Origin: Methanosarcina sp. KYL-1
GTDB lineage: Archaea > Halobacteriota > Methanosarcinia > Methanosarcinales > Methanosarcinaceae
Assembly (NCBI RefSeq): GCF_024372725.1
Contig: NZ_VOUA01000019.1
Coordinates: 1 to 64,000, forward strand
Length of the DNA stretch: 64,000 nt
Direction: 5' to 3'
The notes below the pieces were generated by a model that was not told the origin of the DNA, did no database searches, and worked only from the letters and a program-made list of their open reading frames with translations. The translations under genes and the position numbers were made by a program. Positions 19,186 through 58,300 of this stretch are shown piece after piece. Every line of letters starts with the position of its first letter. Position 1 is the first letter of the stretch.

Positions 19186-19977
19186 TTATTCCTTTTTTGC
19201 CAGGGCTGCCAGGAAGTTCTCCCGGATTTCAGCTGCCTTCTCAAAGGCCATAGCGATTGCTCCAAGGACTTCTTCCTCAGTGAAAGGAGCAGGGCCCATT
19301 TTCTGCATGCCGTTAACCGAGCCGTCCGAACTGGACACCACTGTCAGCTTTGATTCGCAAACAGCTTCCTCGTCCAGGGATGGGTCAACCATCAGTTTTC
19401 CACCTATCTTGGCCAGGGTCACACCCACAGGCATTTCCTTCATTGCAAGGGGCACGTCCTCTCCGAGTCCATGCTGCTTGTTCGGGACCATGGTGGTCAT
19501 GAGGGCTGCAATTGCAGCGAGGCAGGATGCATCAATGATATTTCCTTCATCGTTGAGGACATGGACGTCTATGAAGACGATCCAGACGGATTCCCCTTCC
19601 GTTATGCAAAGCTTCTTTATATCAATTGCGCCTGATTCCCGGATTCCCCTGTCAACGACCCGGGCCATTTCGATCCCCTCTTCTCTCGGGGGCCCCGGCT
19701 CGAAGCTCGGAGAAGCAATCGGGTTCAGTTCCAGATTTGTAATGATCACGCCTTCGTCCCTGGAATCGGGGAAAGGAGTGCCTGTCTGGAGCTTTATGCC
19801 CACAAGGACCTGGGTCTTTCCAAGGGTAACCCTGGCAGAACCTTCGGCCTTGGCAATAACATTTGTCTCGAGCTTTATGTCCCTGAAATCTTCAAACCCG
19901 CGCCCATCCAGGCGCTTCCCTTTGATCATGAGGTTGTAAATGTAATCTTTCTTAAGGGTGGGGATAACGTCACTCAT
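19186..19977 (-). CDS. rrp42: Exosome subunit Rrp42
   Basis: RNase PH-fold subunit that alternates with Rrp41 in the archaeal exosome ring; Rrp42 lacks its own active site but shapes it. Motifs: KRLDGRGFEDFRDIKLE, VTLGKTQVLVGIKLQTGTPF, PGPPREEGIEMARVVDRGIR, ASCLAAIAALMTT. The frame opens with GTG at 19986, but that overlaps the ribosome site GAGGTGA. The ATG at 19977, 5 bases further, gives MSDVIPTLKKDYIYNLM and is taken as start. It overlaps the end of Rrp41 by 8 bases (ATGAGTGA), so the two subunits are probably translated in coupled fashion. Confidence 0.95.
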   Translation of the reverse strand: MSDVIPTLKKDYIYNLMIKGKRLDGRGFEDFRDIKLETNVIAKAEGSARVTLGKTQVLVGIKLQTGTPFPDSRDEGVIITNLELNPIASPSFEPGPPREEGIEMARVVDRGIRESGAIDIKKLCITEGESVWIVFIDVHVLNDEGNIIDASCLAAIAALMTTMVPNKQHGLGEDVPLAMKEMPVGVTLAKIGGKLMVDPSLDEEAVCESKLTVVSSSDGSVNGMQKMGPAPFTEEEVLGAIAMAFEKAAEIRENFLAALAKKE

Positions 19978-21463
19978 TGTTTTCACCTCTGGACTCTACA
20001 TTGGACGGGTCTTTTACTACCTTCCAGGGGCCTTCGGGCTCTTCCTCTGCTTCGGTTTCTTCTTCCTCTGCTTTGGGCTCTTCCTCTGCTTCGGTTTCTT
20101 CTTCGAATTCTTCTTCTTCCTCTGCTTCGGTTTCTTCGAATTCTTCTTCTTCCTCTGCTTCGGTTTCTTCGAATTCTTCTTCTTCCTCTGCTTCGGTTTC
20201 TTCTTCGAATTCTTCTTCTTCCTCTGCTTCGGTTTCTTCGAATTCTTCTTCTTCCTCTGCTTCGGCTTCTTCTTCGAATTCTTCTTCTTCCTCTGCTTCG
20301 GCTTCTTCTTCGAATTCTTCTTCTTCCTCTGCTTCGGTTTCTTCTTCGAATTCTTCTTCTTCTTCCTCTGCTTCGGTTTCTTCTTCGAATTCTTCTTCTT
20401 CCTCAGCTTCGGCTTCTTCATCGAATTCTTCTTCTTCCTCAGCTTCGGTTTCTTCATCGAATTCTTCTTCTTCCTCTGCTTCGGTTTCTTCTTCGAATTC
20501 TTCTTCCTCAGCTTCGGTTTCTTCTTCGAATTCTTCTTCCTCAGCTTCGGCTTCTTCTTCAGCTTCCGGAATTACTTCAGTACCCTGGAATTCAGCGAAA
20601 GCTTCTTCGGAGTCTTCTTCCTCCTCGACAACTTCTTCAATGGATTTCTCAAGAATTGCTGCCTCAAGGGCGTATTCAGGAGCTGCTTCAGCTTCTGCTT
20701 CCTTTGCTTTCTCTTCAGCTCCGGCCTCTCCTGCAGGTTCTTCTTCTGCCGGGGCCGTGAACTTCGTCCTGAGGGCTGCCTGCTGGATTTCAAGGATCTG
20801 CTTGCATCCCATCTTTACGAGTTCCATGCCTCTCTTGATTTCTTCCTGGGTGAGGTGCCCGTCCATCTGGAGGAGGGTAATTTCCCCGTCCTGGGTCATG
20901 GCTACCGGGAAGTCTGCTTCGCCGTAGTTGTCCTCGTCCTTATTGAGGTCAAGCACTACCTGCCCGTCCACTTTTCCGAAAGCACAGGAGGTGATAAGGC
21001 CCTTCATGGGTATTCCAGCATCTGCCAGGGCTATGCTCGAAGCATTAATTGCCGCAGTCCTTGTCCCTGCATCAGCCTGGAGTACTTCCACAAAGATGTC
21101 AATAGCGGCTTTAGGGAAAAGCTCGGCCATAATCACGGGTTCGAAAGCTTCCCTTGAGACCTTCGAGATTTCGATGCTCCGCCTGCTTGGGCCGGGGCGG
21201 GCGCGGTCTTCTACGGAGAAAGATGCCATATTGTATCTATAACGGATAACTGCGGAATCTGAGCGCTGGGTGCGGCGGGGGTGTGCTTCTCTGGGGCCGT
21301 ATACGCCCACAAGGATCTTGTTCTTGCCCCATTCAAGATAACAGGAACCATTGGCTCTAGAGAGTACGCCGATTTCTATTTTCATGGGCCTGATTTCATC
21401 CACACGCCTCCCATCAAGACGCAGCCCATCCTCAGTAATTAATTTTTCAGGTTTATCGCTCAT
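19970..21463 (-). CDS. rrp41: Exosome subunit Rrp41 with long acidic repeat tail
   Basis: Residues 1-~240 are a normal catalytic exosome RNase PH subunit: GLRLDGRRVDEIRPMKIEIG, the RNA/phosphate-binding RRTQRSD (63-69), and acidic active-site residues D178 and D184 in DEDNYGEADFP. It degrades RNA 3' to 5' phosphorolytically. Residues ~240-497 double the usual length: first an Ala/Glu linker, then ~13 tandem repeats of about 11-12 residues (EFEEETEAEEEE) and a conserved-looking end, GPWKVVKDPSNVESRGENNE. The DNA repeats are 33-36-base units, always in frame. The tail is strongly negative and probably disordered; it may bind basic ribosomal or RNA-binding partners or limit RNA access. Confidence 0.95.
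   Translation of the reverse strand: MSDKPEKLITEDGLRLDGRRVDEIRPMKIEIGVLSRANGSCYLEWGKNKILVGVYGPREAHPRRTQRSDSAVIRYRYNMASFSVEDRARPGPSRRSIEISKVSREAFEPVIMAELFPKAAIDIFVEVLQADAGTRTAAINASSIALADAGIPMKGLITSCAFGKVDGQVVLDLNKDEDNYGEADFPVAMTQDGEITLLQMDGHLTQEEIKRGMELVKMGCKQILEIQQAALRTKFTAPAEEEPAGEAGAEEKAKEAEAEAAPEYALEAAILEKSIEEVVEEEEDSEEAFAEFQGTEVIPEAEEEAEAEEEEFEEETEAEEEEFEEETEAEEEEEFDEETEAEEEEEFDEEAEAEEEEEFEEETEAEEEEEEFEEETEAEEEEEFEEEAEAEEEEEFEEEAEAEEEEEFEETEAEEEEEFEEETEAEEEEEFEETEAEEEEEFEETEAEEEEEFEEETEAEEEPKAEEEETEAEEEPEGPWKVVKDPSNVESRGENNE
20020..20575 (-). repeat. In-frame 33-36-bp repeats encoding the acidic tail of Rrp41
   Basis: About 13 units containing GAATTC and TCTGCTTCGG on the plus strand. 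Unit length varies only by multiples of three, so selection keeps the frame. Long apparent ORFs on the other strand are by-products of the repeat. Confidence 0.9.
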
Positions 21464-28165: not shown

Positions 28166-30913
28166 ATGAATATCTCCCGCCTGCTTAATGAAATAAAAGC
28201 TTCTCCCAGGTATGAAAACCAGGTAGTGCATATCGAAGAGACCCCTGAAAGGGAAGCTTCCTATTCACCTCTGGAACTGAAACCGGAGGTTAACGCTGCC
28301 CTTTTTGGGATGGGGATCGAAAAGCTCTATACCCACCAGGCGGAAGCTATCGAAAAGGTTCGGGAGGGAAAGGACATTGTGCTCTGCACGACCACGGCAA
28401 GCGGAAAGTCCCTTACGTACCTGATCCCGATTTTTGAAGCGGTCTTAAAAGACCCTGAAGCTACGGCTCTTTACATCTCTCCGCTCAACGCCCTGGTAAA
28501 CGACCAGCTCAAGACCTTCCTGGAATTTGAGGAAGGGCTTAAGTCAGGGGCAGGCATCGCCCGCTACACCGGAGCCCTTTCCGATGCCCAGAAGAGGAAA
28601 ATCCGGGATGGACAGACAAACGTGGTCTTCACGAACCCCGAGATGATCCACATGAGCTTCCTGGCCTGGCACCACCTCTGGAAGCGCTTTTTTTCAAACC
28701 TGAAATTCATTGTCGTGGACGAGAGCCACTACTACAGGGGCGTTATCGGGAGCAATATGGCAAACCTCCTGCGCAGGCTTTTGCGGGTTGCGGAGTACTA
28801 TGGGGCTTCTCCGCAGTTTATCTGCTGTTCGGCAACCATCGGGAACCCTAAAGAGCATACGGAAGCCCTGATTGGGAGGGAAGCTGCGGTGATAGACAGG
28901 AACGGCTCGGCCCACGGGCCCCAGCAGTTCGTTTTCTGGAACCCGCCCCTGTACCTTAACAAAAGGGGGACAACCCTGAGAAGGAGCAGCTTTTACGAGG
29001 CTTCCACCCTCTTTTCAAATTTTGTGCAGGCAGGGCTGCAGACCCTTGCCTTTACGAGAGCGAGGCAGGGAGTGGAGCGGATGTACAAAAGCTGCAGGGA
29101 ACTTTTGAGGGAAAAGGGGCTTTCCTCTGCCATCTGTTCCTACAGGAGCGGCTACTTCGACCGGGAAAGGGAGGAGATCGAAAAGAAAATGGCTTCCGGA
29201 GAATTAAAGGGCGTGATTTCCACAAATGCCCTTGAACTGGGGATTGACATCGGAAGCCTTGACGCCTGCATCCTTGACGGGTACCCGGGCACGGTCATGA
29301 GTGCAAGGCAGCAGGCCGGAAGGGCAGGCAGGAGCGGGAACGAAAGCGTGGTGGTCCTGGTCGCAGGCACAAACGCCCTTGACCAGTATTATATGAGGAA
29401 CCCTGCCGACTTTTTTGAAAGGGGCAGTGAAAACGCTGTGCTAAACCCCAAAAACCCCTACATCCTGGCAGGACACCTGCTCTGTGCGGCAAAAGAAATC
29501 CCCCTGCGGGCCCGGGATGAGAAGTACTTCGGAAAAGGTTTTTCCAGGGTTGTGGAACTCCTGGAGGCAGAGGGGCTGCTTGCAGGGGACGACCCGAAGT
29601 TTTCCACGGACCCCTTCCCGTACAAACAGGTCTCCCTCAGGGGAATCGACAGCAACACGTATTCCCTCCTGGCTTTTGAAGGGGAAAAAAGCTTTCCGAT
29701 CGAAAAGGACATCGAAGAGACCCTGGCTTTTCGGGAATGCCACCCCGGGGCCGTTTATATGCACAGGGGCGAGCCCTACTATATAAACAGGATCGACCAC
29801 GAGAAAAAAGAGATCCATGCAGTAAAGACCCATGACAGTTACCACACAAAGCCCATGATTGACTCTTCCGTGGCCCTGCAGGAGTCCTACGCTGCAAAGG
29901 CCCTCATGCACGCCCCGGACGTGGAGGTGGGGCTCGGGGAAGTCGAGGTCACGGACCGGGTGGTCGGGTACAGGAAGGTCCAGACCTACAGCAATGAGAC
30001 CATGAGCGCCCACGAGCTCGAGATGCCGCCAATCGCCCTTCAGACCGTGGCCCTCTGGTTAAAACTCCCGGCCCGGCTGCAGGAGAGGGTAGAAGAGCAT
30101 AAGCTTGACTTTGCGGGCGGGATCCATGCCGTGGAACATGCCATGATTTCCATGTACCCCCTCCACCTCCTTGTGGACCGGAGCGACGTGGGCGGCCTTT
30201 CTACCCCCTCCCATCCCGACCTGGGTGGAAAAAGCGGGATTTTCGTTTATGATGGGCACAGGGGAGGCGTCGGGTACGCCGAAAAAGGCTACGACCTGAT
30301 TGAACAGGTCCTGGACGGCACCCTGAAAGCCATCGAGACCTGTCCCTGCGAAAGCGGCTGTCCGAGCTGCATCCAGTCCCCCAAGTGCGGGAACAATAAT
30401 GAGCCCCTGGACAAGCAGGCTGCAATAATGCTCCTGCATGAGCTCCTGGGAAAAGCCCCTTACGTCCCCCCTCAGAAAAAAGAAAAGCACCTCTCCGAAA
30501 TTGCCGCCTCCGGACAATCCGTGGCAGTCCGGGACTCAGGCGCTGCCCTTGACAGGGTAAGAAGGCAGCTCAGGCGGGAAGCCGTAAAGCAGGAGCCTGC
30601 CAGCGTAAAGGAGCCCAGGGAAAAGACCTTTGTTGCAACCGATGAAAACGGGGCCATGCTCGGAGTAATCTCCGCCCAGGTACCTGAAAAAGCCGCAGCA
30701 AAAGCTTTTTACCAGAAGTTCATCGGGAGGATAGAGGCAACACGGGAAAAGCCCGTTGAAATCCGTATCAGGGACCTCGGGGCGGCAAGCGATTCCCACT
30801 TCAAGGTCTGGACTGAAGCGGCAGAAAACGGGGCAGCTGAAGAAAGCGGGAACTGCGAGGACGGCAGCGGGAAAAAAGCTGTAAAGAAACTAGTTGTTAA
30901 AAGAATACGGTGA
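28166..30913 (+). CDS. MrfA/Hrq1-type DEAD/H helicase with C-terminal MC1-like DNA-binding domain
   Basis: Residues ~40-450 are a superfamily 2 helicase: THQAEAIEKV, Walker A CTTTASGKS (~74-82), VVDESHYYRG (~185-194), and the domain-2 motifs STNALELGIDIGSLD and QQAGRAGRSG. The C-terminal zinc-binding (MZB/DUF1998) motif CPCESGCPSCIQSPKCG is at ~724-740, as in yeast Hrq1 and Bacillus MrfA, 3'-5' helicases acting in interstrand crosslink repair. Unusually, residues ~819-880 (KTFVATDENGAMLGVISAQV ... HFKVWTEAAEN) follow the pattern of Methanosarcina chromosomal protein MC1, a DNA-bending protein. The usual family ends after the MZB domain. Ribosome site GGAG; monocistronic. Confidence 0.9.
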   Translation: MNISRLLNEIKASPRYENQVVHIEETPEREASYSPLELKPEVNAALFGMGIEKLYTHQAEAIEKVREGKDIVLCTTTASGKSLTYLIPIFEAVLKDPEATALYISPLNALVNDQLKTFLEFEEGLKSGAGIARYTGALSDAQKRKIRDGQTNVVFTNPEMIHMSFLAWHHLWKRFFSNLKFIVVDESHYYRGVIGSNMANLLRRLLRVAEYYGASPQFICCSATIGNPKEHTEALIGREAAVIDRNGSAHGPQQFVFWNPPLYLNKRGTTLRRSSFYEASTLFSNFVQAGLQTLAFTRARQGVERMYKSCRELLREKGLSSAICSYRSGYFDREREEIEKKMASGELKGVISTNALELGIDIGSLDACILDGYPGTVMSARQQAGRAGRSGNESVVVLVAGTNALDQYYMRNPADFFERGSENAVLNPKNPYILAGHLLCAAKEIPLRARDEKYFGKGFSRVVELLEAEGLLAGDDPKFSTDPFPYKQVSLRGIDSNTYSLLAFEGEKSFPIEKDIEETLAFRECHPGAVYMHRGEPYYINRIDHEKKEIHAVKTHDSYHTKPMIDSSVALQESYAAKALMHAPDVEVGLGEVEVTDRVVGYRKVQTYSNETMSAHELEMPPIALQTVALWLKLPARLQERVEEHKLDFAGGIHAVEHAMISMYPLHLLVDRSDVGGLSTPSHPDLGGKSGIFVYDGHRGGVGYAEKGYDLIEQVLDGTLKAIETCPCESGCPSCIQSPKCGNNNEPLDKQAAIMLLHELLGKAPYVPPQKKEKHLSEIAASGQSVAVRDSGAALDRVRRQLRREAVKQEPASVKEPREKTFVATDENGAMLGVISAQVPEKAAAKAFYQKFIGRIEATREKPVEIRIRDLGAASDSHFKVWTEAAENGAAEESGNCEDGSGKKAVKKLVVKRIR

Positions 30914-31363
30914 GAAACTTCTCAGATGAAACTTCTCAGATTATTGACTGACAATGTACTGACAATGTACTTACAATGCTTTTATCTGTCTACAATGCTT
31001 TTATCTGTCTACAATGCTTTTATCTGTCATTCTTTTGTGGTGCGGAACACTTAAACATTTTTTTAATTAAGTAAGTGGGATATGAAGATACGGATGGTGG
31101 ATATTTAGGGGCATATGCACATGGAATTGGCTGGCTGTGGAATAAAAAATAGTCTTATTATATATAGAAAGTCTAAATATAGCGATGGATAGTCGAACTC
31201 TGCATATGTTGTCCTAACTTCTCTTTTATACACTCTACTCGCTCACAATATTGAGTAAGTTCTCCTATAAACTTCCTAAATTATGGAAAAAAAGTGAAAG
31301 GTTCTTATAGTATACGGTAGTATATAGTTGATGTAGTGTTACATTAATCGAATAACCGTAGTT
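30914..31363. other. AT-rich spacer with 19-bp tandem repeats
   Basis: 30980-31030 has three copies of ACAATGCTTTTATCTGTCT. The rest is AT-rich without ORFs. Confidence 0.5.
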
Positions 31364-31660
31364 AATTGAGTACTGGATTGATTGTGTGGTTGCGTTCAAT
31401 CCGGTTCACTCAATTCCCAAGTTGAGTAACTGAATTGGTCTTTTGGTTGGGGTCAATTCAGTTCCCTTAATTCCCAGGTTGAGTAACTGAATTGGTCTTT
31501 TGGTTGGGGTCAATTCAGTTCCCTTAATTCCCAGGTTGAGTAACTGAATTGGACTTTTTGTTGGGGTCAATTCAGTTCCCTCAATTCCCGATTAATTGAG
31601 TAGCTGAATTGGTCTCGTGGTTGCGTTCAATTCAGTTCCCTCAATTCCCGGTTCATTCGG
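31364..31660. repeat. Array of five ~57-bp palindromic repeats with compensatory changes
   Basis: Units begin (TTGAG) at 31366, 31422, 31479, 31536 and 31596. Each holds a long inverted repeat: TTGAG-T-AACTGAATTG, a ~17-base loop, then CAATTCAGTT-CC-CTCAA or CTTAA. In unit 1 the arm changes to GGATTG on one side and CAATCC on the other, so pairing is kept. A degraded partial sixth unit follows at ~31650. Units adjoin directly, with no unique spacers, so this is not a CRISPR. No ORF crosses it convincingly. Confidence 0.85.
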
Positions 31661-31707
31661 TTGGTTGTGTGGTTTACTATTGATAAAGTAACTGTGGGGT
31701 TAGTCAT

Positions 31708-31794
31708 ATGAACAGGTTATTTCCGTTTATGATGTTTGTAATGTTGTTTATGGCTTTCATGTTTATGTTTTCCTTCAGGGCCATAAGCCTGTAA
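31708..31794 (+). CDS. Possible 28-residue membrane microprotein
   Basis: MNRLFPFMMFVMLFMAFMFM followed by FSFRAISL: a single Met/Phe-rich hydrophobic helix between an Arg at residue 3 and an Arg at residue 24. GTGGGG lies ~10 bases before the ATG as a weak ribosome site. The ORF sits between the palindromic array and a terminator-like structure (31801-31905), so it could be its own transcription unit. The short length means chance cannot be excluded. Confidence 0.35.
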   Translation: MNRLFPFMMFVMLFMAFMFMFSFRAISL

Positions 31795-31800
31795 CTATAA

Positions 31801-31906
31801 ACCTGCAAATCTTCCCGGATGTTTGCCTATTCCGGGTTTTGCCTGTGATAACTGCGTCCTGAATCTCGGGAGCGTGGTTGCATCCGGGCAAACAGGTACG
31901 TTTTTT
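31801..31906 (+). promoter_or_regulatory. Candidate attenuator or terminator structure with alternative stems
   Basis: CCCGGATG (31814-31821) can pair with CATCCGGG (31881-31888), or GTTTGCC (31821-31827) with GGCAAAC (31887-31893) plus ACCTG/CAGGT. The two share bases, so they exclude each other. A run of six T follows at 31901-31906. It may end the microprotein transcript or act on the oxidoreductase gene downstream. Confidence 0.35.
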
Positions 31907-32103
31907 ATGTCCAGGGGACCTTTTATACTCAGGGGATGAAAGGAGGGTATAAAAGTAAGTACAGCGTTCTTTATAATGTCTGATATCTTTATATCTGATA
32001 TTTTTGTAAAGTCTGATGTGCTGAGTTTTCTAAAATTTCTACAAATAATCTGATTAATCTGATTAATCTGAGTTTTCTTACGAATTCTTACGGGGATACA
32101 GCC

Positions 32104-33534
32104 ATGGATACGGAAAAGCAGGTTCCAGGGAAGGGGGGAGCCAGGCCCGGATATGACGTTTTGATAATCGGGGCAGGGCCAGCCGGGATGTTTGCGGCAT
32201 ACGAGCTTGCAAAGCAGCCGCTTAATATCCTGATCGTTGATATGGGAAAGGACATCGAGAAACGCCAGTGCCCCATGAAAACCCTGGGATACTGCATACA
32301 CTGCACCCCCTGCGATATCATGTGCGGGGTCGGGGGCTGCGGGACGTTTTCCGACGGGACCCTGAACCTGCGCCCGGACATCGGCGGAGACCTGGCAGCC
32401 CTTACCGGGGACCAGGACAAGGCCTGGGAACTCGTAAACCGGGTGGATAAGGTCTTTTTGAAGTTCGGGGCACCCGAAGGGTCCCTGCTCACCGAAGGCC
32501 CGGAAATCGACGAACTGAAACGCAGGGCGGCTTCGGTCGGGGCCCGCTTTATCGAGATCAAGCAGCGGCATATAGGCTCGGACAACGCCCCTGACGTGAT
32601 CGGGAGATTCAAGAAGGACCTTGTCAAGAAAGGTGTGGACTTTTTGCTGGAAAGCGAGGTCGAAGACCTTATCGTGGAAGAGGGGACCTGCCGGGGCGTT
32701 GTGCTTGCCGGCGGGGAGACTCTCCGGGCCTATTACGTGCTCCTGGCACCCGGCAGGAGGGGCTGCGACTGGGTCTCTGAAATTATTGAAAAGCACGGAA
32801 TCGAGGCCAGTTACGGGGGAATCGATATCGGGGTCAGGGTAGAAGTCCCGGCAATCATCATGGACCCCGTGACCCGGATCAACCGCGACCCCAAGTTCCA
32901 CATCCAGACCCGGCGCTACGACGACTTTGTCCGGACCTTCTGCACCAACATGCGGGGTTTTGTGGTAAAGGAAGAGTATGAGGGCTTTGTCGCAACAAAC
33001 GGCCACTCCATGTCCGGAACCTTCTCCGAAAACACCAACTTTGCCTTCATGGTCCGAATCGAACTTACCAAGCCCATGGAAAACACCACAAAATACGCCC
33101 GCTCAATCGCCAAACTGGCAACCACGATCGGCGGGGGAAAACCTGTCCTCCAGCGCATGGGCGACCTCAGGCGCGGCCGCCGCTCAACAGAAGAGCGCCT
33201 CGCAAGAAACCTCGTGGCCAATACCTTAAAAGACGTTACCCCCGGAGACATCTCCATGGCCCTTCCCCACAGGATAGTCATGGACATCATCGAAGGCCTG
33301 GAGATCTTAAACGAGATCATCCCGGGGGTTGCCTCGGACTCGACCCTCCTCTACGCTCCCGAAGTCAAGTTCTACGCCATGCACCTCAAAGTCGGCAGGA
33401 ACATGGAAACCGGAATCAAGAACCTCTTTGCAGCCGGGGACGGGGCAGGGCTTTCAAGAGACATCGTAAATGCGGCTGCAACCGGCATCATGGCTGCGGA
33501 AGGGATAGTGGAGAAGGTTAAAGGGAAAGGGTGA
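32104..33534 (+). CDS. FAD-dependent oxidoreductase (COG2509 family)
   Basis: 476 residues. The dinucleotide-binding motif is DVLIIGAGPAGMFAAYEL (~18-35). A second FAD contact near the end is NLFAAGDGAGLSRDIVNAAA (~440-460). A Cys-rich stretch CPMKTLGYCIHCTPCDIMCG then VGGCGTFSDG (~56-90) is notable and could bind a metal or Fe-S centre. The family is annotated as uncharacterised FAD-dependent dehydrogenases; the substrate is unknown. The start ATG 32104 has no strong ribosome site. The gene converges on and overlaps the ATPase gene by 17 bases. Confidence 0.85.
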   Translation: MDTEKQVPGKGGARPGYDVLIIGAGPAGMFAAYELAKQPLNILIVDMGKDIEKRQCPMKTLGYCIHCTPCDIMCGVGGCGTFSDGTLNLRPDIGGDLAALTGDQDKAWELVNRVDKVFLKFGAPEGSLLTEGPEIDELKRRAASVGARFIEIKQRHIGSDNAPDVIGRFKKDLVKKGVDFLLESEVEDLIVEEGTCRGVVLAGGETLRAYYVLLAPGRRGCDWVSEIIEKHGIEASYGGIDIGVRVEVPAIIMDPVTRINRDPKFHIQTRRYDDFVRTFCTNMRGFVVKEEYEGFVATNGHSMSGTFSENTNFAFMVRIELTKPMENTTKYARSIAKLATTIGGGKPVLQRMGDLRRGRRSTEERLARNLVANTLKDVTPGDISMALPHRIVMDIIEGLEILNEIIPGVASDSTLLYAPEVKFYAMHLKVGRNMETGIKNLFAAGDGAGLSRDIVNAAATGIMAAEGIVEKVKGKG

Positions 33535-36313: not shown

Positions 36314-38602
36314 ATGGAAGATGTCGATAAAAAAGAACTGAGTGAAAGGGATATCTGTACGAAGTTCATCACACCCGCGATCAAGCAGGCCAGATGGGAT
36401 GAGCGCCAGATAAGGGAAGAAGTGAATCTCACCAATGGCAGGATCATTGTCAAAGGCTCGACCGCAAGCAGGGGGAAGCCTAAGAGGGCAGACTATATCC
36501 TGTACCACAAACCCAATATCCCCCTGGCAGTGGTGGAAGCAAAGAGAAACATATACACGGTGGGGGACGGCATGCAGCAGGCCCTTATGTATGCTGAGAT
36601 GCTGGACATCCCGTTTGCTTTCAGTTCCAACGGGGACGGCTTCCTTGTGCATGACCGGACCGGCACTCTCGGGAATGTGGAAGAGGAAATCCCCCTGGAC
36701 CGGTTCCCGGAGCCCGAATTTCTCTGGCAGAAATATTGTGAATGGAAAGGGCTTGATGAAGGCAAGCAGAAAATCGTAACCCAGGACTATTTTATTGATT
36801 TCAGGAAGCCTCTGCGCTATTACCAGCGGATAGCCATTAACCGGACTGTGGAGGCAATTGCGAAAGGGCAGGACAGAATCCTGCTCGTTATGGCAACAGG
36901 CACGGGAAAGACCCTTACGGCTTTTCAGATAATCTGGCGACTCTGGAAGGCAGGGGTAAAGAAAAGAATCCTCTTCCTGGCAGACAGGAACATCCTTGTC
37001 GACCAGACAAAGATCAATGATTTCAAGCATTTCGGAAAGGCGATGACAAAGATCAAAAACCGGGAAGCTGAGAAGTCATATGAGATTTACCTGTCCCTCT
37101 ACCAGGCAGTTTCGGGGACGGAAGAGGAGAAAAACATATACAGGCAGTTTTCACATGACTTTTTTGACCTGGTAATCGTGGACGAGTGCCACAGGGGAAG
37201 TGCAGCCGAGGACTCGGCCTGGAGGGAAATCCTCGAATATTTCTCCTCGGCAACTCAGATCGGGCTGACTGCGACTCCGAAGGAGACAAAGGAAATCTCG
37301 AACATCCACTATTTCGGGGAGCCTATCTACACTTATTCCCTGAGACAGGGGATTGAAGACGGGTTCCTGGCCCCCTACAGGGTGATACGCATAGACCTTG
37401 ACAAAGACCTTGCAGGCTGGAGGCCGGAAAAGGGCAAGGTGGACAAGTACGGCAGGCCAATTGAAGACAGGATCTACAACCAGAAAGACTTTGACAGGGA
37501 CCTTGTGCTTGAAAAGAGGACCGAGCTGGTCTCAAAGAAGATTACCGAATTTTTGAAGGCAAACAACCGCTTTGACAAGACCATCGTTTTCTGCGAGAAC
37601 ATAGACCACGCAGAGCGGATGAGGGGAGCCCTTGTTAATGAAAACCCGGACCTTGCAGGGGAAAACCGGAAGTATGTGATGCGGATAACCGGGGACAACC
37701 CGGAAGGAAAAGCCGAACTTGACAGCTTTATAAACCCTGAGAGCCGCTACCCTGTGATTGCGACCACCTCCAAACTCATGAGCACCGGCGTGGACGCCCA
37801 GACCTGCAAACTGATAGTGCTTGACAAGCGCATCCAGTCCATGACCGAATTCAAGCAGATCATAGGCAGGGGGACCCGTGTCCGGGAAGATTTCGGGAAG
37901 TATTATTTCACGATCATGGACTTCAGGAAGGCAACGGAACTCTTTGCCGACCCGGACTTTGACGGCGACCCGGTGGAGATCTACGGGCCTGACGGAAAAG
38001 TCATCCGCCCGAGGGGGCCGGGAGAGGAAACGGACCGGGAGAAGTATGTTGTTGATGACGTGGAAGTGGGCGTTGTTACCGAACGCACGCAGTACTACGG
38101 GCCGGATGGGAAACTGATTACCGAATCCTTAAAAGACTACACCAGAAAGACCTTGCTCAAGGACTTTGAGTCTCTGAACTCTTTTTTGAAACACTGGAAC
38201 GAAGCCGAAAAAAAGCAGGTTATCCTTGCCGAACTTGAAGAACAGGGAGTTTTGCTGGACGCCCTTGCCGAGGAAGTCGGAAAGGACTTTGATCCCTTTG
38301 ACCTGATCTGCCATGTTGCCTTCGACCGCCCGCCCCTGAGCCGAAAAGAGCGGGCTGAAAAGGTGAAAAAGAGCGACTATTTCAGCAAATACGGGGAACA
38401 GGCACAGGAAGTCCTTGACACCCTGCTTGACAAGTATGCGGATGACGGAATCGAGAACCTTGAGAACATGAGCGTCCTCAAAGTCCAGCCCTTTGACAGG
38501 ATAGGGACCCCGATGGAGATTGTGAAACTGTTCGGGGGCAAGAGCAGCTACCTTGAAGCAGTCCGGGGGCTCGAGTCACAGCTCTATACTCTGGAAGCCT
38601 GA
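36314..38602 (+). CDS. hsdR: Type I restriction enzyme R subunit
   Basis: 762 residues, EcoEI-like size. N-terminal nuclease domain with the PD-(D/E)XK-type residues [21 protein letters not shown] (~56-76). Translocase motor: Walker [15 protein letters not shown] (~194-207), [11 protein letters not shown] (~285-295), [17 protein letters not shown] and [12 protein letters not shown]. The C-terminal EcoEI_R-type domain is from ~590. With HsdM and HsdS it cuts unmethylated DNA after ATP-driven translocation. A TATA-like GAATATATATTG at 36268-36279 lies ~35 bases upstream. Confidence 0.95.
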
Positions 38603-38745
38603 TTCAAAAACCGGAGAAACTGCCATAAACCTGACAGGAAAACTTCCATAGGCTTGAAACCTGATTCGAAGGGCTTATGTGGGATTACAAAATAGTGTCC
38701 CCAGTATTTTTTTTATAACGGTTCAAATTGCAGGAAAGGAAAAAC

Positions 38746-40191
38746 ATGTCACTGGACACAACAATCAAGGGCATTCAGGACATCATGCGAAAAGACGCAG
38801 GTGTGGATGGAGACGCCCAGCGCATAAGCCAGCTCGGCTGGATGCTGTTCCTGAAAATATTCGATGCGAGGGAAGAAGAGTACGAACTGGAAGATGACGA
38901 ATACGTCTCTCCGATCCCGGAAAAGCTACGCTGGAAGAGCTGGGCAGCCGATCCCGAGGGAATTACCGGTGACTCCCTGCTGGACTTTATCAACGATAAA
39001 CTCTTCAGGACCCTCAAGAACCTCTCCTTTGATGAAAACTCCGATCCCCGTGGTTTTGTGGTCAGGGACGTCTTTGAGGACTCCTACAACTACATGAAAA
39101 ACGGGACCCTGATCCGCCAGGTCATTAACAGGATCAACGAGATCGACTTTACCAGCTCAAAAGACCTGCACACCTTCGGCTCAATCTATGAAAAAATCTT
39201 AAAAGACCTCCAGAGCGCTGGCAACGCAGGCGAGTTCTACACCCCCCGCGCAGTCACCCAGTTCATGGTAGACATGGTTGACCCCAAACTCGGCGAAAAA
39301 GTCCTGGACCCTGCCTGCGGGACAGGCGGTTTCCTGACCAGCACAATCGAACACATCCGCGAAAAATACGTGAATTCCGTAGAAGACCACCGCATTTTGC
39401 AGGAATCCATCTCCGGCGTCGAGAAAAAACAGCTCCCCCACCTCCTCTGCGTAACCAACGTCCTCCTCCACGGCATAGAAGTCCCATCCCGCATCCGCCA
39501 CGACAACACCCTCGCCCGCCCCCTCCGCGACTACACCCAAAAAGACCGCGTGGATGTAATAGTGACAAATCCCCCCTTCGGCGGCATGGAAGAAGACGGC
39601 ATAGAAACAAGCTTCCCGGCAAACTTCCAGACCCGTGAGACCGCTGACCTTTTCCTTGTCCTCATCATGCACCTCCTAAAAGACGGAGGCAGATGCGGAA
39701 TAGTCCTCCCTGATGGAACCCTTTTCGGGGAAGGCGTAAAGACCCGCATCAAAGAAAAACTCCTTCAGGAATGCAACCTGCACACAATCGTCCGCCTCCC
39801 TAACGGCGTCTTCAGCCCCTACACAGGCATAAAGACCAACCTCCTCTTCTTCACCAAAGGCGAACCCACAAAAGAAATCTGGTACTACGAACACCCCTAC
39901 CCCGCCGGCTACAGGTCCTACTCCAAAACCAAACCCATGCGCATAGAAGAGTTCGCCCCCGAAAAAGCCTGGTGGGACAACAGGACGGAAAGCGAATTCG
40001 CCTGGAAAGTCAAAGTAGAAGACGTAATCGCCAGCAACTACAACCTCGACATCAAAAACCCCAACACCGTTGAAAACGACCACGGAGACCCTGAAGAACT
40101 GCTGGAAAAGTACAAATCTCTGCTTAACGAAATCTCCAAAGTCCGGCAGGAGCTAAAAGAAGAACTTATAAACTCCTTAAATCATAATTGA
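38746..40191 (+). CDS. hsdM: Type I DNA methyltransferase M subunit
   Basis: 481 residues. N-terminal helical HsdM domain (TTIKGIQDIMRKDAGVDGDA), then an N6-adenine methyltransferase: AGEFYTPRAVTQFMVDMV, SAM motif VLDPACGTGGFLTS, catalytic motif IV VIVTNPPFGGMEED. It methylates adenine within the HsdS-specified site. The frame opens upstream at 38728, but GGAAAGG followed by ATG 38746 (MSLDTTIKG) is the likely start. The 143-base gap after hsdR could hold a separate promoter (TTTTTTATAACGG at 38709-38721). Confidence 0.95.
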   Translation: MSLDTTIKGIQDIMRKDAGVDGDAQRISQLGWMLFLKIFDAREEEYELEDDEYVSPIPEKLRWKSWAADPEGITGDSLLDFINDKLFRTLKNLSFDENSDPRGFVVRDVFEDSYNYMKNGTLIRQVINRINEIDFTSSKDLHTFGSIYEKILKDLQSAGNAGEFYTPRAVTQFMVDMVDPKLGEKVLDPACGTGGFLTSTIEHIREKYVNSVEDHRILQESISGVEKKQLPHLLCVTNVLLHGIEVPSRIRHDNTLARPLRDYTQKDRVDVIVTNPPFGGMEEDGIETSFPANFQTRETADLFLVLIMHLLKDGGRCGIVLPDGTLFGEGVKTRIKEKLLQECNLHTIVRLPNGVFSPYTGIKTNLLFFTKGEPTKEIWYYEHPYPAGYRSYSKTKPMRIEEFAPEKAWWDNRTESEFAWKVKVEDVIASNYNLDIKNPNTVENDHGDPEELLEKYKSLLNEISKVRQELKEELINSLNHN

Positions 40192-40218
40192 ATTTTATAA
40201 AATAGTTGAGGTTTCAAA

Positions 40219-40887
40219 ATGGGATACTTTTGTTCAGTTTGCAAATCAGACATCAAGGAAGCGGAATTCAAATACTCGATGGAAAAATACGGCCAGGCCC
40301 TGTGCAGGGAACACCAGAACAACTCCGGCTCCAAATATGATAATAGTAACTCCAACAACATTCCCAAATCCCAGGACTCCGATAAATTATCTAATTTCTC
40401 CAAAAGGGACGGAAACTTTGTCGAAAGCATGATCAAAGGCAGGATCGCAGAAACCCTTGTCGAAGAATTATTCCTCCACCTGGACTATTCCGTATACCGT
40501 TTTGGCATGGAAAACACCATCCCCGGTATCATGGAGCAGCTTAGAGGCGTAAAAAACGACGTAACCTACACGATCAGAAAGATGCCGGACTTCGTTGTCC
40601 AGAACAAAAAAACCGGCGAAGTATTCTTCATCGAAGTAAAATTCAGGAAAAACGAAACCTTCGAACTCAAAGACGCTGGAGAAGACTATCCCTACGAAAA
40701 CTGCCACTTCGTAGTAGTTTCGAAAAACCACATCAAATGCATCACATACAAAGAACTGAAAGAAGGGAAAGCGGTAACCCCAACTTCCAGAAACTACCTT
40801 GGCTCCCGAAAAGAATTTGAACTTGACAAAGAAGTTATCATCCAGTTCTGTGATTTCGCAGTCAAATTCTTCTCAGTAGTCGAATAA
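40219..40887 (+). CDS. Zinc-knuckle plus PD-(D/E)XK-like protein inside the restriction operon
   Basis: 222 residues, no family recognised with certainty. The N-terminus is a zinc-ribbon-like FCSVCKSDIKEAEFKYSMEK with C5, C8, C29 and H32. After a Ser/Asn-rich linker (~36-60) comes a nuclease-like core: Glu78 in GRIAETLVEELF, Asp124 in KMPDFVVQNKK, and Glu139-x-Lys141 in VFFIEVKFR. This is the spacing of the restriction-endonuclease fold. It lies 27 bases after hsdM and 16 before hsdS with its own GAGG ribosome site, so the three are surely one operon. It may be an accessory nuclease, a Holliday-junction or nicking factor, or a control element of the type I system. Confidence 0.75.
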   Translation: MGYFCSVCKSDIKEAEFKYSMEKYGQALCREHQNNSGSKYDNSNSNNIPKSQDSDKLSNFSKRDGNFVESMIKGRIAETLVEELFLHLDYSVYRFGMENTIPGIMEQLRGVKNDVTYTIRKMPDFVVQNKKTGEVFFIEVKFRKNETFELKDAGEDYPYENCHFVVVSKNHIKCITYKELKEGKAVTPTSRNYLGSRKEFELDKEVIIQFCDFAVKFFSVVE

Positions 40888-40903
40888 GCAAAGAAGATCA
40901 AAA

Positions 40904-42628
40904 ATGGACCCAGAAACATTTTTTACGAATTTTGAGATGCTGGCAGAGGCACCGAATGGTGTGCAGAAGTTAAGGGAGCTTATTTTGCAGCTTGCGGTTA
41001 TGGGAAAACTCGTTCCACAGGACCCAAATGAGGAGCCGGCTTCCGTGTTACTTGAAAAAATGGAAGCTGAAAAAAAGAGGCTAACAAAAGAAAGCAAAAC
41101 TAAAGGGTCAAAATCAATAAGTGCCATAGGTTCTGATCAGGCTCCCTATGAAATTCCATCAAGCTGGGAATGGACTGCTCTTTCAGAATGCGGATTGATA
41201 AATCCACGCAATGATATTCCCGACAAAAAAGAAGTCTCATTTGTTCCTATGACTTATATTTCTGAAAAATACGGACAAGCTGTTGAGACAGAAACTCGAA
41301 GATGGGAAGAAATAAAAAAAGGTTTCACACATTTTGCTGAAAACGATGTGGTTCTTGCAAAAATAACTCCCTGTTTTCAAAATGGAAAATCTGCCGTTAT
41401 GAAAGGGCTGAAAAACGGATTCGGAGCCGGCACAACAGAGTTACATGTTTTCAGACCATTCACAGAATTGATGAGTCCTGAGTATGCTCAGATTTACTTA
41501 AAGTCTCCAGATTTTATTTATGGTGGGATTCCAAAAATGACAGGGTCTGCAGGACAAAAAAGAGTTCCTAAAGACTATTTTTCCGAAAATCCTTTTCCTC
41601 TCCCACCCCTCGCCGAACAAAAACGCATAGTCTCTAAAGTCGACGAACTGATGGCACTCTGCGACAAACTCGAAGCCCGCCGCCAGAAAAAACAGGAGCT
41701 TCAGAGCAAACTCAACAGCGCTGCCCTCGACAGGATGCTCAGCGCCGAAAGCCAGGAGGAATTTGAACAGCACTGGCGGCGCATCTGCGAGAATTTTGAT
41801 CTCCTCTACGATAACCCTGAAAATGTTGAAAAACTAAGGCAGGCGATTCTTCAGCTTGCGGTTCAGGGGAAACTTGTGGAACAGAATCCGGAGGATGAGC
41901 CAGCGAGTGTTTTGATTGAGAAAATTGAGGCTGAAAAAAAGAGGTATGCTAAAGAGTATAATCTTAGAGAAAAAGAACCATTGCCATCTGTAGAAGCTGA
42001 TGAAGAGATCTTTAAATTACCTGCTGGATGGATATGGTCTAGAATTGGAAGTTCATTTTTAACATCAAGTGGGACAACTCCTAAAAGATCAAACCATGAT
42101 TACTTCATTGGTGGAACTGAAAATTGGGTAAAAACAACCGATCTTACCAATGGCATAGTCACTTCTTGTGAGGAGAATATTACTCCCGAAGCGGTAAAAG
42201 ACTGTAACTTAAAGTATTATCCTGTTGGAACTGTATGTGTTGCAATGTATGGAGGAGCGGGGACAATCGGCAAATCTGGTATTTTGGGGATGGTAAGTAC
42301 TATAAATCAATCAGTTTGTGGAATGTATCCAAACAAATACTTTTTACCTGAATTTTTACATTGTTATGTAAAATCAATTAGATCAGAATGGATGAAATTC
42401 GCTGCCGGACTTCGAAAAGATCCCAATATTAATGGAAAAATAATAGATCGAATGGTTGTTCCTATCCCGCCCCTCAATGAACAAAAACGCATCGTTGAAA
42501 AGGTCGAGCAGCTTATGGGTTTGTGCGATGAACTCGAATCTAAATCAAAGAAAGAGAGGGAAGATAGCGAGAAGCTTATGGAGGCGGTTGTCAGGGGTTT
42601 GTTAGAAGGTGCCGCCGCCGAAATATAA
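40904..42628 (+). CDS. hsdS: Type I restriction specificity subunit S
   Basis: 574 residues with two target-recognition domains (~75-235 and ~365-525) separated by conserved helical spacers. The family words PLPPLAEQKRIVSKVDELMA and IPPLNEQKRIVEKVEQLMGL end each half. The two halves also share related N-terminal helices (LRELILQLAVMGKLVPQDPN and LRQAILQLAVQGKLVEQNPE), an internal duplication usual for HsdS. Codon use in the recognition domains is A/T-richer than in the spacers, which suggests exchange of recognition modules. Its last ~23 codons are repeated downstream. Confidence 0.95.
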   Translation: MDPETFFTNFEMLAEAPNGVQKLRELILQLAVMGKLVPQDPNEEPASVLLEKMEAEKKRLTKESKTKGSKSISAIGSDQAPYEIPSSWEWTALSECGLINPRNDIPDKKEVSFVPMTYISEKYGQAVETETRRWEEIKKGFTHFAENDVVLAKITPCFQNGKSAVMKGLKNGFGAGTTELHVFRPFTELMSPEYAQIYLKSPDFIYGGIPKMTGSAGQKRVPKDYFSENPFPLPPLAEQKRIVSKVDELMALCDKLEARRQKKQELQSKLNSAALDRMLSAESQEEFEQHWRRICENFDLLYDNPENVEKLRQAILQLAVQGKLVEQNPEDEPASVLIEKIEAEKKRYAKEYNLREKEPLPSVEADEEIFKLPAGWIWSRIGSSFLTSSGTTPKRSNHDYFIGGTENWVKTTDLTNGIVTSCEENITPEAVKDCNLKYYPVGTVCVAMYGGAGTIGKSGILGMVSTINQSVCGMYPNKYFLPEFLHCYVKSIRSEWMKFAAGLRKDPNINGKIIDRMVVPIPPLNEQKRIVEKVEQLMGLCDELESKSKKEREDSEKLMEAVVRGLLEGAAAEI

Positions 42629-55340: not shown

Positions 55341-58300
55341 TCACTCCGCAAAATAGATCATTTCATTGGGCATCCGGGTCAGCTCGTTGCTCTCTATCCC
55401 TGAAAGGATAAGGGCCTCGATCCTTTCTTTCGTATTCTTGCGAGTTGTCCTGATCCCGAGCACCCGTGAGGCCTGGATCACCAGGTCTTCCAGGGGAGTG
55501 GAATACTGGGAATTGAGCACAAAGCGGACAGCTTCCAGGATTTCCTCGTCGCAGATCCATTCTATCTTTGCTGCTGTGTCTCCCTCCCTCCTCCGGAGGA
55601 GGTCAGAAGGCCCGGAAACAGGCCAGAGGAATTCTCCCTTTATCCGGATTTCTCCCGATTCCCCGGCTGAGGCCACTGAATCGAAAATTCGTGTCTTGAT
55701 TTTACCGGCCATACGCGGGATTTCGCAGTGGAGCTTAATCCTCTGGAGCAGTTCCTCTTCATGCACGGGGCCTTCACATTCTACGATTGTTACTACCGCG
55801 CCTATCAGTTCTTCATCCGGGACTTCGGAAAGGTCTCCTGACTTTGGAAGCCCCGGGGAGAGGCAGACCCTGTAGGGAGGTACAAGAGCTTCGAGGGATT
55901 CTTCTTTTCCTGAAGATGACCCTTCTTTTCCTGAAGGCTTTTCAGGCCCCTCGGGTTCGTCGGTCCCGGCATTTGCAGCATAAAGGGCCTCTGATACCCT
56001 TTTTGTGGGAGCTAAGGTTTCTGGTTTCAGGGTGAAATAATCTGTTTGGGTGAAAGAATCTGTTGAATCGTTTTTCCCTTCCATTTCAGCTTCCTTTTCC
56101 GGCCAGAAAGCCTGCAGAGTCAGAGCTTCGGGGTCAGGGTCAATTTCCTGTTCAGGTTCCTGAAGGGGCTTTGTTTCGGTTTCAAATTCGGTTTCAATTT
56201 CAGCTTTGGTTTCAAATTCAGGCCCCATTTTCGTTCCAGGCTTAACTTCCGGTCCGCTTATGGAGTTGTCCTCTTCTTCTCCTTCTTCTTCGGAATCGGA
56301 CTCAGGCTCAAAAAATCCCCCTGACCCGTAAATGTAAGCAAACTCATTGATCCTTTTGCCCTTTCTTTTCTTTACGGGGCTTGCCATGAAATCGACATCC
56401 GGGTAAGCCTGATAGAAGTTGAGCCTTTCAGGCTCTGGCTCAGGGATGGGCTCAAACTCACCTTCGGTGTCCTCTCCCGTAATAGTGCGGGGTTCTACAT
56501 TGAACTTAAGGAGTTTTGACTTCCCTGACCTTCTTACAGGCCTCTTTCGGGAGTTTTCATCAGCCAGCGAAGCCATAGCTGCTGCTTTTGAGGTCATTTC
56601 GGGGAGGAAGTCCGTTCCTGCGGGCCCTGAGAGGTTTAGCTCAAGTTCGGAAAACGGGCTTGAGTAATCTTCTTCCCCTCCTCCCGCTTCCAGTTCTTCT
56701 TCTTCTACTTCCAGTCCATCTCCTGCTTGCAGCGCTTCTATTTCTAATCCTTCTCCTGCTTCCAGTCCTTCTACTTTCAGTCCTTCTTCCGGTCCGACAC
56801 CGTATTCTGTCATGGAAGAAGTTTCAGGTCCCTTTAATTTTTCAACTTTTTCGCTTCTGCCGGATGTGAGGAAAGCGGCATCCGGATGAACTTTTTTTCC
56901 GGAACTTTCTTTTGAGGTATCGTTCCAGGAAAATGGCTGGTATACTTCCTCAGCCCCGGTCTCGGGTTGAGTTTCAGGTTGAGTTTCAGGTTCCGGAGCT
57001 TCCAGCCGGGCCTGCTCGACAGCTGCCTTCACGGCTTCCAGGAGTTTTTCCCGGCTCTCTTTCGGGTGCAGGTACCAGTCCGTGGACCAGACCCTGTAGA
57101 GTTTCCAGCCCAGCCCTTCCAGTACCTGCTGGCGCAGGCGGTCCCGGTCCCTGGCAACGGGAGAGGAATGGTAACCTGCCCCATCGCATTCGATCCCGAG
57201 AATGTAGCGGCCCGGGTGCCGGGGGTCAGGGACTGCAAGGTCGAGCCGGTACCCGGCGCAGCCTATCTGCCTGTGGACTTCACACCCGTTTTCCGTAAGG
57301 AAATCGGAGACTGCTTCTTCAAAGGGGGATTCGGCATCCTCCCTCCCACAGGCCGGGGAGAGGAGCCTCCCGCTTTCCGCAAACTCAAGGAAGACTTTGA
57401 GGGCCCGGAGCCCGAAGGAGGAGTTTTCGTCCAGGTGCAGGTCCCTTGAGGTGAAGTTTGCAAAGACCACACACTTTTCCCTGGCACGGGTGATCAGGAC
57501 ATTTAAGCGGCGCTCTCCGCCTTCCCGGTTCAGGGGCCCGAAGTTCAGGGAAAGCTTCCTGTTGTTGTCAAAGCCGAAGCCCACGCTCAGCAGGATGACG
57601 TCCCTTTCGTCCCCCTGGATGGTTTCGAGGTTCTTTACAAAGAAGTGCTCGCCCCTCTCATTCCCGGAGTTCAGGTCCACTCCGGGGCTGGCTTTTATGA
57701 GGGCTTCGATTTCTTCCTGGACGGCTTCCTGCTGTTTTACATTGAAGGTCCCGACCCCCAGGCTTTTGTCCGGGTACCTGCGGAAGTGTTCGAACACCGC
57801 CCTGGCAACGGCCCTTGCTTCTTCCCTGTTGGCCCCGCTTTTGCCCCTGTCGTAGACGGCATCGGGCAGGTGCACGAATTTCAGGCCCAGGCGCTCGTCT
57901 TTCTGCATGGGGGAGGGGTAGACGTAGAGCCGGTTGTCGTAAAACTCCTGGTTTGAGACCGCAATCAGGGACTCGTGCCTGCTCCTGTAGTGCCAGCGCA
58001 GGGTCTTGATCGGGAAACTGCGCTTGCAGACGTTTAAGATGCTTTCCATGTCCCCTGCGGCTGCGTAGTCGTCGGGTTCGCTTTCCGGGGCGTCGATGAC
58101 CGTATCGAAGAAAGTGGTTGGGGGAAGCTGCTTTGAATCGCCCATGACAACCACCTGTTTTCCGCGCAGGAGGGCGCCTACTGCGTCTTCGGGCCTGACC
58201 TGGCTGGCCTCGTCAAAGATGATCACGTCAAAGCGGGTGCTCCGCGGGTCCAGGTACTGGGCGATGGAAAGGGGGCTCATCATGAAACAGGGCTTGATCT

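Follow-up and report, generated by a model that had tools for sequence, protein, structure and literature searches.

A row of palindromic repeats in the probable mRNA leader of a small membrane-peptide gene of Methanosarcina sp. KYL-1

Why should five nearly identical palindromes stand head to tail between two protein-coding genes of a methanogen, and are they used as DNA, as RNA or not at all? The question is raised by one locus of Methanosarcina sp. KYL-1 (G000 in the comparisons below), in a stretch of 64,000 nucleotides of contig NZ_VOUA01000019.1 that we call the window. The initial annotation of this DNA had proposed a multi-site protein target, a tandem small-RNA array or a replication or partition site. 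The locus also offers one place at which a functional RNA role of prokaryotic satellites can be tested.

Architecture of the array and pairing within it

Five imperfect palindromic units of 57-60 bp lie head to tail on the plus strand at 31364-31652, with a decayed edge copy beside them. TRF detected the array at 31366-31649, with a period of 57, 4.9 copies, 87% matches and a score of 380, confirming the five palindromic repeats annotated at 31364-31660. The annotated unit length of 57 bp fits all start-to-start spacings except the last (57, 57, 57 and 60), and the end of the array is nearer 31652 than 31660, as a decayed partial copy follows directly at 31653-31675. Head-to-tail copies with a roughly constant period fit a prokaryotic satellite or minisatellite.

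With flanking pairs included (alignment A2), each unit fits a single structure. A lower stem of 7 bp is followed by a 1x2 internal loop, which has U in the 5' arm and CC or CA in the 3' arm; above this come an upper stem of 10 bp and a small hairpin at the apex, in which UGGUUG is near-constant. The hairpins occupy 31364-31418 (unit 1), 31420-31475 (unit 2), 31477-31532 (unit 3), 31534-31589 (unit 4) and 31594-31649 (unit 5), all on the plus strand. Units 2 and 3 have identical repeat units, and the edge copies are diverged; unit 1 carries an A-U to G-C double change and has lost one A, and unit 5 shares its apical GUGGUUGC with unit 1 and with the single unit of the related genome G037. The units had been described as abutting without spacers, which is true of the DNA repeat, since the linkers belong to it; as hairpins, neighbours are separated by about 4-8 unpaired nucleotides (..UUCCC..).

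Every one of the five units retains the 20 pairs of the named structure (99/99 cells, all standard pairs), and the compensatory-change reading of the initial annotation is upheld. Its example from unit 1, GGATTG with CAATCC, is correct and corresponds to column pair 14/39. The remaining differences had been assigned to loops; 8 of the 14 apex columns do vary, but so do 8 of the 36 stem columns, although every stem change still pairs on the plus strand. All six other stem changes, in 18 stem pairs, are G-U variants of Watson-Crick pairs on that strand and none is A-C, the result expected of the same kind of change if the minus strand were the folded one. Six G-U in a row would have a probability of 0.001-0.02 without a pairing constraint, depending on transition bias. 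Against dinucleotide shuffles the fold of the array had z scores of -7.6 (plus strand) and -5.5 (minus strand), whereas a stricter control made of a tiled shuffled unit, in which tandem repetition is kept, reduced the value to only -2.1.

A promoter, a probable leader and a small open reading frame

The locus is bordered upstream by the gene of an Hrq1-like helicase (28166-30913) and downstream by that of an FAD-dependent dehydrogenase (32104-33534). An archaeal BRE/TATA-like promoter, GAAAGG TTCTTATA, is present at 31296-31309 on the plus strand and aligns with TGAAAGTTTTTTATACTGA in about 15 congener loci and with TGAAAGATTCATATAGTA in the sister genus; the usual TATA spacing predicts a transcription start at about 31331. 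At 31708-31794, on the same strand, we found an unannotated ORF for a hydrophobic peptide of 28 aa, MNRLFPFMMFVMLFMAFMFMFSFRAISL, with a weak Shine-Dalgarno sequence (GGGGU) 8 nt upstream and homologues at the locus in other genomes. The array sits between promoter and ORF, both of them conserved, and is flanked by leader segments that align with the short leader of the congeners. This position makes it most likely that the array is transcribed as the 5' leader of the ORF, of about 377 nt. A T6 run at 31901-31906 (plus strand) probably ends the small-ORF transcript, a ACGTTTTTTATG-type run being kept in the sister-genus loci L111 and L112, and a second TATA box lies at 31948. Together these two elements suggest separate transcription of the small gene and of the FAD gene.

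The MFE structure of the G000 leader pairs 31343-31358 with 31649-31665 in an outer stem that encloses the array. Its 5' arm is AUUAAUCGAA-U-AACCG (31343-31358, plus strand), and its 3' arm (CGGUU-CA-UUCGGUUGGU) lies at 31649-31675 (plus strand) with a decayed sixth half-unit. Accessibility of the ribosome site is predicted to be unchanged when the array is left out, which makes simple, direct masking of that site by the array unlikely.

In congeners, a small unannotated gene between the helicase and FAD genes has a TATA promoter about 80 nt upstream of a hydrophobic ORF of 25-28 aa with a Shine-Dalgarno sequence. A profile of the ORF matched 10 of the 31 Methanosarcina genomes, G000 included and each at this locus, giving nine congeners with a homologue, among which the match of G001 is weak (E 7e-4). 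Homologues are found at the same locus in four sister-genus genomes as well. The family reads (M/L)QKLFF..FTCLFMGFMLAISFIQ in congeners and MNRLFPFMMFVMVFMAFMFVFTITM in the sister genus, and the small ORF matches no Pfam family. Synonymous and non-synonymous changes in it are too few in number to be used. The peptide gene is single copy, and in several congeners the ORF is decayed and the promoter persists. The locus points to an unannotated, conserved membrane peptide of 25-28 aa in Methanosarcinaceae and to a leader structure absent from Rfam.

Other parts of the window have features of their own. The exosome subunit Rrp41-like protein encoded at 19970-21463 (RNase PH domains) ends in a Glu-rich C-terminal tail of more than 200 residues, made of repeats that are encoded by about 15 copies of a 36-bp unit. 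Type I restriction-modification genes of the HsdR, HsdM and HsdS types occupy 36314-42628; the protein encoded between HsdM and HsdS has 222 aa and belongs to no Pfam family. At 55341-61118 lies the gene of a 1925-aa DUF4011 / AAA helicase / MTES_1575 nuclease-type protein, which resembles defence proteins.

Copy number and stem conservation in related genomes

BLAST searches of the array against its own genome and 30 congeners returned no match beyond itself, and the covariance model R1 found, across the genus, this array alone plus one weak match. Both methods indicate a single locus in this genome, and a mobile element or MITE, for which dispersed copies were sought, is not supported. Exact degenerate unit patterns gave no hit in the genome and viral contigs. 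Phage or plasmid origin is likewise not supported, as phage and plasmid DNA contained no match to the array, and neither is a known RNA family, with no Rfam match at the gathering score and the best matches far below threshold. The R1 matches at L053 and L109 were attributed to chance, their context being different and tandem unit copies absent, and the match of L131 to the leader query was also set aside as chance.

Searched against the family, R1 matched G037 (E 5e-4), at the orthologous locus, which holds a single unit. The leader query found all four genomes of G037's genus, the sister genus; three of them are public Euryarchaeota or Methanosarcinaceae MAG records. From promoter to start codon the leader measures 186-218 nt in the sister-genus MAGs versus 414 nt in G000. 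There are five units in G000, one in G037 and none clear in G036, G038 and G039, such that copy number varies between related genomes, as it does in satellites. The order of promoter, leader, small ORF and FAD-protein gene is common to G000 and the four MAGs, and the FAD-protein tree makes G000 sister to them (support 0.999). Shared order and tree together indicate that the structured leader is common to the clade and the five-fold array peculiar to the G000 species. The best reading is that the hairpin was amplified from one to five in this species, within a fast-evolving structured leader. The growth of a satellite could then be traced back to one ancestral hairpin, with base pairing kept, in what is probably an mRNA leader.

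Taxonomy places G000 in the genus of the 30 congeners, whereas the FAD-protein tree makes it the sister of genus g5 (0.999). In the leaders of L112 and L113 we observed two to three tandem half-elements, with CAATCRAATAA.. on one side and GTTCCTTYRATT.. on the other. The sister-genus leader appears to gain and lose repeats too.

The stems were also compared across species. The outer stem occurs in 5/5 species as AAUCGAA-U-AACUG facing CAGUU-C[CA]-UUCGAUU, with two pairs changed on both sides, and it is homologous to the unit stems, which share its 1x2 internal loop. Alignment A6 combines 11 stems (five outer stems, the five units and the G037 unit); 98.3% of its cells pair, and changes on both sides, found at four pairs and in 12 cells, support the helix. 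For pairing, for cells changed and for the covariation score, no shuffle out of 500 attained the observed value; for pairs changed on both sides, 32 of the 500 did. These counts overstate significance, since the elements are few and related to each other. Non-Watson-Crick variants in A6 number seven G-U versus one A-C, an excess that favours a folded plus-strand RNA. Unguided RNAalifold on the five leaders, compared with column shuffles, gave z scores of -0.18 for the plus strand and -3.8 for the minus strand; the plus-strand result is no better than shuffles partly because direct repeats misalign.

Homologous arrays with unmatched arms had been named as the finding that would speak against compensatory change. 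The sister genus has no homologous array; in its one homologous unit, that of G037, the lower stem pairs at 10 of 11 A6 positions, but the upper five base pairs are broken. Alone, this unit folds no better than shuffles. The upper stem is thus particular to the G000 species, and what is shared is the lower stem with the internal loop.

Competing explanations and known systems

Taken as a whole, the evidence tips slightly towards a structured mRNA leader, and we hold its proposed effect on stability or docking with less confidence. The sequences themselves show the order of promoter, leader and ORF, its conservation in the sister genus, an increase from at most one unit to five and changes that preserve pairing on the plus strand; transcription of the leader and its folding in the cell are inferred from these. 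The mRNA of a tiny membrane peptide would begin with a leader of about 377 nt in which the outer stem encloses a row of hairpins, each predicted to carry the internal loop of U opposite C[C/A]. The folded row would most likely act in cis on its own mRNA; it may protect the 5' end from decay, let an RNA-binding protein that tunes peptide expression dock at several places, or both. Methanosarcina mazei commonly has long 5' UTRs (PMC5378194), and those of mtaA and mtaC add to low-temperature transcript stability in a cold-adaptive methanogen, as PMC5378194 cites from Cao 2014. This link between 5' UTRs and stability in methanogens, combined with an array that has no predicted effect on the ribosome site, favours cis stability or multi-site docking. 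A more specific version, in which a specific RNA-binding protein reads the near-invariant U / C[C/A] loop of a multivalent hairpin leader and copy number sets the strength of control, seems to us rather unlikely. If true, it would be a new archaeal RNA element that controls a conserved tiny membrane peptide.

The chief alternative is neutral growth: slippage or unequal exchange would have duplicated a weak hairpin of a tolerant leader, leaving an array without function beyond that of the ancestral leader; this is possible, if doubtful. The repeats would be palindromic because the founder was, and the pairing changes would come from template switching, which can also produce compensatory A-U to G-C changes in DNA palindromes, or from strand-biased mutation. 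Among archaeal groups, Methanosarcina has the most satellites (PMC6749651), and TRF listed 369 rows in the 464 kb of the genome that were sampled (400 kb plus the window); in several of them the units, of 41-47 bp, form hairpins. As satellites are readily made in the genus, copy number alone needs no function. Absence of the array from all sister species, edge copies diverged as in ordinary satellites and the modest z score against the tiled-unit control fit neutral growth as well. However, template switching would yield perfect palindromes, not G-U pairs, all six single stem changes retain plus-strand pairing (P 0.001-0.02), and in species with no array the outer stem co-varies. Neutral growth is a poor explanation of the one-sided G-U record and of this co-variation.

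Among the other arrays sampled, those at L067 (4741-4913), L068 (494-610 and 6722-6867) and L075 (14364-14460) are non-coding, with hairpin-forming units of 42-44 bp; they share GTCATYCTG/GATGACT motifs in the same genome and are possibly one dispersed family. At L074 (1729-1828), 2.4 copies of a 41-bp repeat adjoin a 243-aa open frame and fold very strongly on the minus strand (-0.48 kcal/mol per base).

A stand-alone array, cut into separate trans-acting small RNAs, would also suit strong hairpins that recur with UUCCC linkers and an almost unchanging UGGUUG at the apex. This came nearest of the three roles first proposed, but synteny places the hairpins in the 5' leader of the small ORF and not in a stand-alone gene, promoter and ORF are conserved without the units, and there is no Rfam match, and we consider it very unlikely. 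Recognition at the DNA level, by a protein with many sites or for replication or partition, is slightly more improbable still. Such sites typically consist of tandem inverted repeats, and the minus strand folds as well, yet the sites are not kept in congeners, and the arms co-vary with no fixed consensus and with more G-U than A-C variants. The multi-site proposal is weakened by the one-strand G-U changes that keep pairing and by co-variation of the stems across species; the replication or partition site finds no support, since the window proteins scanned include no Orc1/Cdc6, Par, Cas, integrase or transposase family, nor any other replication family. Least credible of all is a module resembling type I toxins, in which the structured leader would restrain translation of a toxic membrane peptide together with an antisense RNA. 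A hydrophobic peptide of 25-28 aa does stand behind a structured leader, and a TATAAAAGG motif is present on the minus strand just downstream, near 31920; against this, the gene of the peptide occurs only once and has decayed in several congeners, and its start site is predicted to be no more hidden with the array than without.

CRISPR repeats are likewise tandem and palindromic and occur in archaea. The initial annotation rightly set the array apart from them: the units abut, with linkers that are part of the repeat and no unique spacers, and no cas genes were found among the window proteins scanned. CsrB and RsmZ are stand-alone bacterial RNAs that bind CsrA through GGA loops. As in RNAs of that type, several near-identical hairpins would offer many identical binding sites, whereas the present hairpins would lie in an archaeal mRNA leader. 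Related methanogens provide long folded leaders upstream of ORFs, in mtaA and mtaC and in the Methanolobus TSS map (PMC5378194). The probable leader described here differs from those of mtaA and mtaC in its repeated homologous hairpins before a 28-aa ORF. With the satellites of Methanosarcina (PMC6749651) the array shares a head-to-tail, non-coding, intergenic arrangement and a sequence unique to its locus; most of those have units below 30 nt or code for protein repeats, whereas the unit here is a long palindrome, and changes in its arms preserve pairing.
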